Source: Pirellulimonas nuda | Lineage (GTDB): Bacteria > Planctomycetota > Planctomycetia > Pirellulales > Lacipirellulaceae | Direction of reading: 5' to 3' | NCBI RefSeq assembly: GCF_007750855.1 | Contig: NZ_CP036291.1 | Location: forward strand, 4,092,001-4,156,000 | DNA length: 64,000 nt | Shown: one piece after another, positions 3,676 to 56,398 of the stretch | Position numbering within the stretch: position 1 is the first letter of the stretch | Layout of the letters: each line of letters opens with the position of its first letter | Program-made: the position numbers and the translations under genes | Notes under the pieces: model-generated | Database searches by the model: none | Told to the model about the DNA's origin: nothing | The model's input: the letters and a program-made list of their open reading frames with translations, nothing else

Positions 3676-3709
3676 GTGGTGAGTAGTGACTGGTGAGTGG
3701 GTTTGCGAT

Positions 3710-3849
3710 CGAGCCGGTAGCGTCAGCGCCCGGGGTGTGGCGCGAACCCACTCGACTCACGCGCGGACCGGAGCGGCGCGTGTCGTCGCTCTACTCCGGG
3801 TTGCGACGCGTGTACCCACCGCACTCCGGGCGCTGACGCTACCGGCTCG
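3710..3849. repeat. Long inverted repeat, family A (AGCGTCAGCGCCCGG core)
   Basis: The left arm 3710-3737 and right arm 3822-3849 are 28 nt each and pair at 27 positions. Both contain GTAGCGTCAGCGCCCGG or its complement. The arms enclose an 84-nt loop. The preceding 3672-3703 stretch is built of GTGAGT/GTGACT units. A second copy with the same core lies at 14651-14739. The element sits between moxR and the DUF58 gene. It could fold as an attenuator or an RNA-processing hairpin. Confidence 0.85.
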
Positions 3850-3922
3850 AAAGATTCGTTGTCGCCAGTTATCCGTGCAATCCGTGGTTCATCCCGTTTC
3901 TACCTAGCGTTATCGGCTACGC

Positions 3923-9107: not shown

Positions 9108-9119
9108 CTTGTTGGACGG

Positions 9120-9340
9120 TTGCCCACGAATCACGCGAATGAAACGAATAGAAGACAGGTAGAAGAAGGTTCACCACAGAGTCGCAGAGAACACAGAGAC
9201 GGACGGCAAGATTTGAAACCGCCGATGCACGCCGATGGACGCAGATTTTCGAACATCCGTCTGATCCTCTTTTTCTATCTGCGTCCATCAGCGTGCATCG
9301 GCGGTTCCTTATTCGTTTGATTCGAGAGATTCGTGGGCAA
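9120..9340. repeat. Nested composite inverted repeat (families C, D and B)
   Basis: The outer arms 9120-9150 and 9310-9340 pair at 28 of 31 positions (word TGCCCACGAATCAC). The inner arms 9217-9246 and 9277-9306 pair at 29 of 30 (word AACCGCCGATGCACGC). Between the outer left arm and the inner arm lies a single family-D word, CACAGAGTCGCAGAGAACAC (9174-9193), without its complement. The element fills almost the whole gap between the 9107 stop and the 9379 start, on the transcribed path of the moxR cluster. Confidence 0.9.
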
Positions 9341-9378
9341 CAGTCGTCTTCCCATTACCAAACTAACGAGCGCCGACC

Positions 9379-12810: not shown

Positions 12811-13760
12811 GGTCCTTTTCCGTGAAAACCGTGCTATCCGTGGTTCTTCTCGTTCTTGCGGCCCCGGCTTCTGCCCCCGCTCAAGGCGAGCCGGTTGAGG
12901 TCGACGCCGACACGATGTTCCTAGAAGTAGAAGCGCCGGCCGTGGTCGAGGCAGCAGAGATCAAACCGGGCCAGCAGTTTCAGGTAGAGGTGCGGGTCCA
13001 GCCCGCCGCCGAGGCGCCGGCCGAAGAAGGGGTAAACCCTCAGGTCTTGGCGATGGAGCAGCAGTTGATGCCGCAGTTCCGCAGCCTGCTCGACGGCCGG
13101 CTGCACGGCCTGCGTGCTCTGTGCGACCTGACCCCCAAGCAGCAGACGCAGCTCTTGGAAGCGGGCGCCGGGGCGCTCGAGCGGTCCGTGAGGGCCGTGG
13201 CCCGTCAGCAGCTCGGGCAGCAAAACGGGTTGGTGCAGATCGGCGTCTTGTTTGCCGGCGGCAGGCAAACGGTGGTTGATCCACGGGTCGCGGTCAATAA
13301 GGCGCTGGACAAGGCGATCGCCGAAGTGTTGACCCCGGAGCAGCTCGTCGTTTTCAAGGCCGACGCGGAGAAGCGGGCCGAGTTCCGCAAGCGGGCCGCG
13401 GCGCGGGGCATCGTCAGCGCGATCGACCAGCAGCTCACGCTCAACGCAGACCAACGCAAGCGGCTGCTGGCCGCGTTGCAGGAGAAGTGGCAGGAAGAAT
13501 GGGCCGGGATCGCTCAGATGCTGCAGTACGGCCCGCAGTTCCTGCCGGCCATCCCCAACGGTCTGATCGTGCCGCTGTTGGACGCCGAGCAGAAGCAGCT
13601 TTGGTTGGGCAGGGTGAACCACGGGCACGTCTCCTTCGATCAAGCCGGCTTCCTCGCCAACAACAACCTCCGGATCGAGCCCTTCACGCCCGACGGCGCC
13701 GAGCCCCAACCCGCGGACCCGGCGGCTCCGATCGATCTCTTCGGCCCCATCGAACAATGA
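12762..13760 (+). CDS. Secreted LTxxQ-motif helical protein (first of a tandem pair)
   Basis: This reading is 332 residues. A signal peptide core VKTVLSVVLLVLAAPASAPA ends the N-region. The mature protein is helical and contains DLTPKQQTQ, LTPEQL and LTLNADQRKR, resembling the LTxxQ motifs of CpxP/Spy-type periplasmic proteins. The start is uncertain. An ATG at 12639 overlaps the previous stop but reads through inverted-repeat DNA. A GTG at 12822 gives a textbook signal peptide of about 21 residues. I list the ATG at 12762. Its stop overlaps the next ATG by 3 bp. The function is unknown; periplasmic binding or chaperone activity is an inference from the motif. Confidence 0.75.
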   Translation: MPTERFISVLFRAFSWRSFSVKTVLSVVLLVLAAPASAPAQGEPVEVDADTMFLEVEAPAVVEAAEIKPGQQFQVEVRVQPAAEAPAEEGVNPQVLAMEQQLMPQFRSLLDGRLHGLRALCDLTPKQQTQLLEAGAGALERSVRAVARQQLGQQNGLVQIGVLFAGGRQTVVDPRVAVNKALDKAIAEVLTPEQLVVFKADAEKRAEFRKRAAARGIVSAIDQQLTLNADQRKRLLAALQEKWQEEWAGIAQMLQYGPQFLPAIPNGLIVPLLDAEQKQLWLGRVNHGHVSFDQAGFLANNNLRIEPFTPDGAEPQPADPAAPIDLFGPIEQ

Positions 13761-14599
13761 ACCGCGCCCTGATTCTTCACGCATCGATCCGCCCGCTCGC
13801 GCTCGCCGCCGTCGCGGCCGTCGCGCTGGTGGGCCGCGCCGACGACGACGGCTGGGAGCCGTTCGAGGAAGCCAAGCCCGCGGCCGAGGCGCACCGGTGG
13901 GTCATCCCCCCCGATCAGTTCGAGGGCTGGGTGTTCCAGAACGCACGCACCGCCCAGGGGCAACGCAAGCAGTTCCAGGCCAAGCTCAAGCTAGCGCTCG
14001 ACAACATCGACAAGTCGTGCAGCCTCAGCGAGGCACAGCGCGAGAAGCTCCGGCTCACCGGCGAGCTGCAGATCGAGCGCTACTTTGAGAAGTACGAAAG
14101 GGTCCGGCGGACGTACATCCAGACCAAGCCGGGGCCGAACGATTTCAACGTCATCTGGCAAGAGATCCAGCCGCTGCAGCAGGAAGCGCAGTCCGGGATC
14201 TTCACGAACGATTCGCTGCTGCTGAAGGTGCTGCGCGGCGTGCTGGACGATTCCCAGCAGGCCCAGCACAAGCGGGACGAGAAGGCGCGCCGCGCCTTCC
14301 GCTACCGCGCGTTGGTCGAGGTGTTTGTGCTGCTAATCGACGAGTCGGCGCCCATGACCGACCAGCAGCGACGCGACCTGATCGAGCTGCTGCTCACCCA
14401 GACCAAGCCCCCCAGCGCCTTCGGCCAGCAGGACCAGTACTACATGATGTACCAACTGCACACGGTCCCCGCCGAGAAGCTCCGCAAGGTCGTGGGGGGC
14501 GCCCAGGGGGACCTGCTGACGAAGATCGGCGCCACGGGCCGCGCCTACGAAGCGCACCTCCGCGCCCAGGGCGTGCACCCCGTCGAGGAGGACCAATAG
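13757..14599 (+). CDS. Secreted LTxxQ-motif helical protein (second of a tandem pair)
   Basis: The 280-residue protein has a signal peptide ending near ALVGRADDD (about residue 25). It is highly helical with CSLSEAQREKLRL and APMTDQQRRDLIELL, again LTxxQ-like spacing of Leu/Met, Thr/Ser and Gln. The ATG overlaps the preceding stop (13758-13760), which fixes the start. It looks like a diverged partner of the preceding protein. The two may form a periplasmic hetero-complex with the downstream cyclase-fold and thioredoxin proteins. No enzymatic motif is seen. Confidence 0.8.
   Translation: MNRALILHASIRPLALAAVAAVALVGRADDDGWEPFEEAKPAAEAHRWVIPPDQFEGWVFQNARTAQGQRKQFQAKLKLALDNIDKSCSLSEAQREKLRLTGELQIERYFEKYERVRRTYIQTKPGPNDFNVIWQEIQPLQQEAQSGIFTNDSLLLKVLRGVLDDSQQAQHKRDEKARRAFRYRALVEVFVLLIDESAPMTDQQRRDLIELLLTQTKPPSAFGQQDQYYMMYQLHTVPAEKLRKVVGGAQGDLLTKIGATGRAYEAHLRAQGVHPVEEDQ
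14585..14592 (+). promoter_or_regulatory. Strong Shine-Dalgarno fixing the 14602 start
   Basis: GAGGAGGA lies inside the end of the previous gene, 9 nt before the ATG at 14602. Together with a gap of only 2 nt between genes it supports this start, and therefore translation of the inverted repeat that follows. Confidence 0.7.
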
Positions 14600-14601
14600 C
14601 A

Positions 14602-15786
14602 ATGCGCAGTTCTCTACGAAGGGAAGACGCGGGTAGAACGCCCCTTGCTCTGGAGCCGCAAGCGTCAGCGCCCGGAGCCATTGCCCAGCCACGGCTTCTA
14701 GCGCTGGCACGGCTCCGGGCGCTAACGCTTGCGGCTCCAACACTCTTGGGCGCGGCGGCATGTCTTCTCTTGTGTCTCTCGGCGCTCGCTCCTTCGCGCG
14801 CCCAGGGGCCCCTCCCCTTCTCCATGCACGGCGAGGCGGTGCCCCGCGACGTGCGTGAGATGTACGACCGCGGGCTCAAGTACCTGGCCTCCAAGCAGAC
14901 CCCCCAGGGGGGCTGGGGAGGCAGCTACCAGGGCCCCGGCACCACCGGCATGGCGGTGATGGCGCTGCTGGCCTCCGGCGAGGACCCCAACTTCGGCCCC
15001 TACGCCGACAACGTCCGCCGCGGCGTGAAGAGCATGATCGCAGCGCAGAACGAAGCAACCGGCTACTTCGGCAACAGCATGTACCACCACGGCTTCGCCA
15101 CGCTCGGCCTCGCCGAGGCGTACGGCGCAGTCGACGACCGCAAGCTGTGGTCCGCCGAAGACCGCGGCAAGGGGCGTTCGATCGGCGCGGCGCTCGAGCT
15201 GGCCGTCCGCGCCGCGCTCACCTCGCAAAAGAACAACCCCATCGGCGCCTGGCGCTACTCCCCCGAAGCGACCGACGCCGACACGTCGGTCAGCGGCGCG
15301 GTCTTCATGGGGCTGCTGGCCGCGCGGAACGCCGGCATTGAGGTGCCGGACGAGTCGATCGACCGGGCCATCAAGTACTTCACCGGCATGACCAGCGACG
15401 GGGGCCAGGTGGGCTACTCCGGGGGCTTCGGCAATGGATTCGACGAGTCGCTGCCGCGGATCTCGATCGCGGCCTTGGTGTACGCCGTCGCCCGCCGCAA
15501 GGACCTGGCCGAACACAAGGCGACCCTCGGCTACCTCACCGGCAACCTAGAAAAGACGGCCCAAGGCTCGTACCAGCAGTACAGCGACTACTACGAGGCG
15601 CAGGCGCTCTTCCAGGGCGACATCGACGCCTGGGAGAAATGGAACAAGCTGCTGGTGCGGCGCCTCAAGGAGGCGCAGCAGAAGGACGGCAGCTTCACCG
15701 GGCAGTTCGGCCCGGAGACCAGCACGCAGCTCTCGCTGCTGGCGCTGGCGCTCAACTACCGGTTCCTCCCTATCTATGAGCGGTAG
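14602..15786 (+). CDS. Secreted alpha/alpha-toroid protein (squalene-cyclase-like fold)
   Basis: The 394-residue protein has an unusual N-terminus of about 65 residues ending in a signal-peptide-like stretch (LLGAAACLLLCLSALAPSRA). The mature part has repeats of the prenyltransferase/squalene-oxidase type, such as GLKYLASKQTPQGGWGG and AIKYFTGMTSDGGQVGYSG, with QxDGSFTGQ near the C-terminus. The cyclase catalytic DxDD is replaced by a DADTS-like stretch, so terpene cyclisation is doubtful. Secreted toroid proteins of this kind are common in planctomycetes with unknown function. Residues about 17-46 are encoded by a family-A inverted repeat. The stop overlaps the next start by 11 bp. Confidence 0.85.
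   Translation: MRSSLRREDAGRTPLALEPQASAPGAIAQPRLLALARLRALTLAAPTLLGAAACLLLCLSALAPSRAQGPLPFSMHGEAVPRDVREMYDRGLKYLASKQTPQGGWGGSYQGPGTTGMAVMALLASGEDPNFGPYADNVRRGVKSMIAAQNEATGYFGNSMYHHGFATLGLAEAYGAVDDRKLWSAEDRGKGRSIGAALELAVRAALTSQKNNPIGAWRYSPEATDADTSVSGAVFMGLLAARNAGIEVPDESIDRAIKYFTGMTSDGGQVGYSGGFGNGFDESLPRISIAALVYAVARRKDLAEHKATLGYLTGNLEKTAQGSYQQYSDYYEAQALFQGDIDAWEKWNKLLVRRLKEAQQKDGSFTGQFGPETSTQLSLLALALNYRFLPIYER
14651..14739. repeat. Inverted repeat, family A, lying inside a coding region
   Basis: The arms 14651-14679 and 14711-14739 are 29 nt long and pair at 28 positions. The core AAGCGTCAGCGCCCGGAG is shared with the copy at 3710-3849. Unlike that copy, it is read in frame and encodes part of the N-terminal region of the cyclase-fold protein. 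The loop is 31 nt. Confidence 0.9.
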
Positions 15787-28788: not shown

Positions 28789-28860
28789 TGCCCACCAATC
28801 ACACGAACGAAGCGAATACGTTGAAGACCCCATTTGTTCTATTCGTGTGATTCGTGGGCA
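28789..28860. repeat. Inverted repeat, family C (TGCCCACCAATCACACGAA)
   Basis: Arms 28789-28807 and 28842-28860 are 19 nt and pair at 18 positions. The words are variants of the outer arms at 9120-9340. The element lies between the convergent stops of the antiporter (28750) and the sulfatase (28879), where a bidirectional terminator would be expected. Confidence 0.85.
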
Positions 28861-28878
28861 GCCTTCCGTGCTTTCGGC

Positions 28879-53498: not shown

Positions 53499-53516
53499 AC
53501 GTCGAGGACGCTTAAC

Positions 53517-53668
53517 CACGGAGCCACAGAGGGCACAGGAACGGACGGAGAATCTTGAAAACGCCGCTATGCAAGCCTCGATGACTGACGAAGCCGTGGC
53601 GCCGGGTATTGGTCACTGAGGCTGGAACTTTTTTCTCCTTACGTCTCTGTGCCCTCTGTGACTCTGTG
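53517..53668. repeat. Inverted repeat, family D (CACAGAGGGCACAG)
   Basis: Arms 53517-53538 and 53647-53668 pair at 20 of 22 positions. The CACAGAG words are shared with 32554-32725 and the single arm at 9174-9193. It lies between the convergent stops at 53498 and 53685, where a two-way terminator is expected. Confidence 0.88.
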
Positions 53669-53684
53669 TTTACTACTGCGGTCG

Positions 53685-56319: not shown

Positions 56320-56398
56320 CCCAGGCGAGCCGCCGGCGTCAGCCGACGGAGGTTTCGCTTGTTCTACTCCGCCGCCTTACGCCGGCGGCTCGCCTGGG
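56320..56398. repeat. Perfect inverted repeat, family H, overlapping a gene end
   Basis: Arms CCCAGGCGAGCCGCCGGCGT (56320-56339) and its complement (56379-56398) pair at all 20 positions. The right arm overlaps the last seven codons and the first base of the stop of the symporter gene (stop at 56377-56379). The left arm begins 1 bp after the polygalacturonase-like stop. It is placed as a bidirectional terminator between convergent genes. Confidence 0.92.

Follow-up and report, generated by a model that had tools for sequence, protein, structure and literature searches.

A REP-like hairpin within the reading frame of a putative signal peptide in Pirellulimonas nuda

The locus and its embedded repeat

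The window analysed here, a 64,000-nt stretch of the chromosome of the planctomycete Pirellulimonas nuda (NZ_CP036291.1, positions 4,092,001 to 4,156,000), contains an operon gene whose first codons harbour one copy of a dispersed palindromic repeat. The relevant features are listed below in window coordinates.

13757..14599, forward strand: preceding gene of the operon, with synteny kept in orthologues and its stop coupled to the start at 14602
14585..14592, forward strand: Shine-Dalgarno site GAGGAGGA, with GGAGG retained at this junction in orthologues L013-L015
14602..15786, forward strand: gene carrying the repeat at codons 17-46, encoding a predicted secreted alpha/alpha-toroid-like protein of 394 aa
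14651..14739, no strand assigned: 89-nt palindromic repeat with arms of about 28 nt and a loop of about 33 nt, family consensus TGGAGCCGGAAGCGTCAGCGCCCGGAGG...CCTCCGGGCGCTGACGCTTCCGGCTCCA
3709..3850, no strand assigned: second family copy, intergenic, with a loop of 64 nt
56325..56393, no strand assigned: hairpin of a sister type (GCGAGCCG...CGTCAG...CGGAG)

The protein encoded from 14602 is weakly related to the C-terminal repeats of squalene-hopene cyclase, falling just under the Pfam cut-off, and its mature part is well conserved, with up to 77% identity to orthologues. The position of the repeat inside this gene, the strong Shine-Dalgarno site and nearby stop ahead of it, and the encoding of residues 17-46 or thereabouts by the repeat had all been proposed in the initial annotation, and each was confirmed when the coordinates were checked. 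The ATG lies 2 nt past the upstream stop codon (TAG, 14597-14599), with GAGGAGGA 9 nt ahead; the repeat, running from TGGAGCC at 14651 to GGCTCCA at 14739, corresponds exactly to one 89-nt family copy; and the frame 14602-15786 remains open throughout, with no stop across the repeat, which contributes approximately 30 residues (LEPQASAPGAIAQPRLLALARLRALTLAAP).

Folded alone as RNA, the repeat forms a single long hairpin (-73.5 kcal/mol), and the fold of the region reaches z = -5.7 relative to shuffled sequences. The arm variant GCCGCAAGCG of this copy is accompanied by a matching CGCTTGCGGC in the opposite arm. An Rfam search with the repeat returned only sub-threshold matches to microRNA precursors, reflecting the long stem. 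In addition, other inverted-repeat families are present in the window at 9115-9345, 28832-28867, and 53513-53672, representing the types CCCACGAATCACGCGAAT and CCACAGAG...CTCTGTG.

Start codon and leader of the host gene

The three closest orthologues with a conserved junction (in genomes G002, G015, and G018) were compared at the start codon. In each of them the ATG overlaps the upstream stop (ATGA), and GGAGG stands ahead at the same place as GAGGAGGA. The comparison of these residues among orthologues, as advised in the initial annotation, revealed that the repeat is absent from all three. The distance from the ATG to a conserved VPRD anchor is 112, 106, and 115 nt in G002, G015, and G018, respectively, versus 226 nt in the 14602 gene, and the leader ahead of the conserved A/Q cleavage region counts 31, 29, and 32 residues, versus 67 here (a hand count on the translations). 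An exact match to the core of the repeat is found nowhere in the genomes of G002 and G015, and the 27 matches in G018 include none at the locus equivalent to 14602. Because orthologues with the same upstream gene keep the stop/start junction together with GGAGG, the ATG at 14602 appears from this comparison to be the ancestral start, and the extra 35-38 residues would include the 30 derived from the repeat. Translation beginning downstream of 14739, which the initial annotation had named as the observation that would overturn its reading, is at odds with the conservation of this start in orthologues without the repeat.

The signal peptide of the protein likely comprises residues 1-67. Based on general signal peptide architecture, the repeat would largely precede the hydrophobic core, forming part of the n-region, and would be removed with the signal peptide. 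The intact and conserved stop/start junction with its Shine-Dalgarno site also makes it unlikely that the old start was lost and that the repeat now belongs to an untranslated leader, with translation from TTG 14746 just past it. Such an arrangement is suggested by in-frame TTG codons at 14746 and 14770, by the published warning that REPs annotated as N-terminal frequently lie ahead of the actual start (PMC3733652), and by the poor codon score ahead of residue 75, which is also low where the leader is free of the repeat; however, TTG 14746 is unconserved and adjoins the hairpin without a Shine-Dalgarno site ahead of it, and its product would have a 19-residue signal peptide without a positively charged n-region.

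With the start at 14602 retained, the manner of insertion deserves attention. An 89-nt segment is not divisible by three and would shift the frame if cleanly inserted, such that an extra indel or an altered flank is needed. Moreover, the leader without the repeat still spans about 45 codons to the anchor, versus 35-38 in the relatives (approximately 7-10 residues longer). For these two reasons, the event was not a clean insertion, or small indels came after it. The exact empty site was not recovered among the relatives compared, which include none of the same genus. The initial annotation had proposed that an intergenic element entered coding DNA without loss of function; the in-frame insertion, with the start kept in repeat-free orthologues, stands, whereas preserved function is plausible in view of the full-length reading frame and its conservation among orthologues.

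The hairpin family and its association with a Y1 transposase

A whole-genome BLAST search with the repeat yielded 71 matches (E ≤ 0.001). Exact occurrences of the 15-mer core AGCGTCAGCGCCCGG in the genome number 52, versus 0 for the reversed control, and a core-pattern search allowing at most one mismatch gave 91 matches, versus 14 with the reversed control. A chance palindrome at 14651-14739 was ruled out by this copy number and by the reversed control. A covariance model built from 21 copies placed the family at no fewer than 53 distinct genomic places, almost all of them intergenic, a lower bound counted by hand from a two-strand list and missing long-loop copies such as that at 3709-3850. 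Copies share conserved arms (TGGAGCCGGAAGCGTCAGCGCCCGGAGG) and differ in their loops, with two-sided changes at five pairs in the arms, a level reached in none of 500 shuffles. Copies are dense at 0-1.3 Mb and 4.1-6.6 Mb of the chromosome and sparse at 2-4 Mb. Over 97 genomes (this one and relatives), the exact core was counted 73 times in G071, 52 times here, 32 times in G006, 27 times in G018, and 14 times each in G024 and G038, with 0 or 1 in most others; judging from these counts, such patchiness is that of a mobile element. A literature search for this hairpin family in planctomycetes retrieved only general papers that bear on it.

The repeat had been described as intergenic elsewhere, which holds for almost all of the places located, but other copies also lie in frame within genes. 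A copy at 299536-299650 interrupts the condensation domain of a nonribosomal peptide synthetase (NRPS) whose open reading frame begins at about 299149; PDB 6p1j has 14 residues where this domain has 49, about 35 of them extra. A second copy at 303302-303421 (120 nt, same frame) occupies the linker before AMP-binding_C. Across this gene as a whole (L059 and L150, genome 299149 to approximately 304680), one copy lies within the condensation domain, and the other is flanked by the methyltransferase and the end of the adenylation domain. A further in-frame copy (580233-580334) lies within a multihaem cytochrome (CxxCH motifs), in its Pro-rich linker, and that at 481874 forms the C-terminal tail of a YcxB-like protein. 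Gene context was judged by a simple codon score on sequence stretches rather than with a full gene caller; apparent coding copies at 6336912 and 6380127, together with several overlaps, were set aside, because the upstream codon score is below zero and the start has probably been placed too early. Since the remaining copies checked are intergenic, supply stop codons, or overlap doubtful ORF ends, intragenic copies are rare and located at tolerant sites.

The genome has 15 matches to the Pfam family Y1_Tnp, and one of these genes lies between two copies of the family hairpin:

Genome 6337084-6337638 (L089:2163-2717): Y1/HUH (IS200-like) transposase gene, 184 aa, Pfam E = 3e-8, hairpins on both sides

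Its product contains NHFH and YVRFKQ. Homologous transposases of other genomes (L105, L107, and L113) bear related arms on both sides, as do L106 and L111 in a more diverged form, and the reversed-arm control matched at none of 30 loci. The gene and its flanking hairpins form a REPtron-like unit. Sister hairpins sharing, at least approximately, the skeleton GAGCCG....CGTCAG....CGGAG flank a paralogue in this genome (L151) and the homologues L109 and L110 on both sides; around the paralogue (L151:1467-1991), the framing hairpin is GAGCCGCGCCCGTCAGGAAGCGGAG, in which the inner blocks GAAG and CGCC of the family arm are swapped.

Among 40 copies, no target-site duplication of 1-9 nt rose above the shuffled level. 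IS200-type transposition is not expected to generate such duplications, in contrast to that of DDE MITEs. These sequence data indicate that the family is probably a non-autonomous REP-like mobile hairpin spread by an IS200-like (Y1/HUH) transposase, with the enzyme encoded at 6337084-6337635 as the candidate for its mobilization. The long, near-perfect terminal inverted repeats and variable loops do look MITE-like, yet the lack of a target-site duplication at any length in those copies and the linkage to a Y1 transposase in several genomes make a DDE-type MITE, itself likewise a mobile insertion within coding sequence, decidedly unlikely.

Interpretation and comparison with known systems

The suggestion in the initial annotation that the hairpin tunes translation was not borne out. 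Computed accessibility of nt -20 to +18 of the 14602 gene is 0.38 both with the repeat and with its flanks joined, and the hairpin begins at about +50, outside the initiation footprint; occlusion of the start site was rejected as having no effect on this accessibility. Slower elongation at the hairpin may nevertheless occur. Retention of the hairpin as a regulator that slows early elongation or tunes operon expression, as a very stable stem 50 nt into the ORF and the maintained pairing of its arms might suggest, is highly improbable, given that the repeat leaves accessibility unchanged, that no orthologue has the hairpin, and that pairing characterizes the family in general, pointing to a transposition substrate rather than local regulation.

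The explanation in which we have good confidence is that a mobile REP-like hairpin was inserted in the 14602 gene and is translated within an elongated signal peptide, leaving the mature protein unaffected. The Y1 transposase, with its own gene framed by the same hairpins, would spread the repeat as single-stranded DNA, and one copy would have entered the signal peptide region after the start codon and ahead of the hydrophobic core. As the hairpin arms are stop-free in most frames, a copy in the right frame would be translated, and its n-region residues would be lost when the signal peptide is cleaved after export, so that the mature protein would remain unchanged. A broader proposal is that Y1-linked hairpins repeatedly supply in-frame segments at tolerant sites (signal-peptide n-region, NRPS loops and linkers, and cytochrome linker), in a Rickettsia-like manner with an identifiable transposase, and that some inserts are functional in targeting or co-translational folding; we regard this as unlikely. 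The 14602 case is clean in that orthologues allow a reply to the common criticism of N-terminal insertions, namely that the start codon is misplaced, and the gene offers a tractable place to study the entry of mobile hairpins into coding DNA and the tolerance of n-region length.

In-frame palindrome insertion is already known from Rickettsia and from intragenic REPs, and what is new is this planctomycete example, in which palindromes of a transposase-linked family can become protein sequence outside Rickettsia. Rickettsia palindromic elements (RPEs) are described as palindromic inserts that occupy the reading frames of unrelated proteins (Ogata et al. 2000, 2002; via PMC10969869, PMC3733652). 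The present hairpins resemble RPEs in behaviour, as in-frame inserts at tolerant sites in unrelated protein genes that are absent from orthologues; in-frame copies in intact genes whose relatives lack the repeat were found in the 14602 gene and, by comparison with PDB relatives, in the NRPS condensation domain. In contrast, they occur in a different phylum, have a Y1 gene framed by the repeat whereas RPEs in those accounts are without a known transposase, and are in frame in approximately 4 of 53 places compared with nearly half of RPEs.

REP/GTAG and CGTC repeats and TIRtrons, for which intragenic and N-terminal copies are known (PMC3733652), are likewise short, mostly intergenic hairpins that are sometimes found in ORFs and N-termini, and the GTAG and TIR types have tyrosine transposases flanked by inverted repeats, as is the case here. 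A Y1 gene flanked by the repeat, the arrangement that characterizes transposase-associated REPs and REPtrons, is present in this genome at L089:2163-2717. Unlike REP/GTAG and CGTC repeats, however, the arms of about 28 nt pair together across a variable loop without a terminal tag: instead of the unpaired terminal tag and 5-13 bp stem of the GTAG/CGTC superfamily, the ends are TGGAGCC/GGCTCCA, with CGTC located internally and base-paired. Planctomycete class 3 TnpA-Y1 proteins, their genes flanked by atypical multi-copy hairpins, are known in outline (PMC6006769). The transposase at L089:2163-2717 is similar in its planctomycete origin, its HUH motif NH.H (NHFH) and Y....Q motif (YVRFKQ), the hairpins on both sides, and a flanking repeat present at 53 places or more, a putative assignment by motif reading; the 5' foot of class 3 systems is CnGA, and CGGA occurs in the family arms, at positions that may or may not correspond to a foot. 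As far as tested, the 14602 insertion works like an RPE insertion, while the element itself belongs with the Y1-linked REP-like hairpins.
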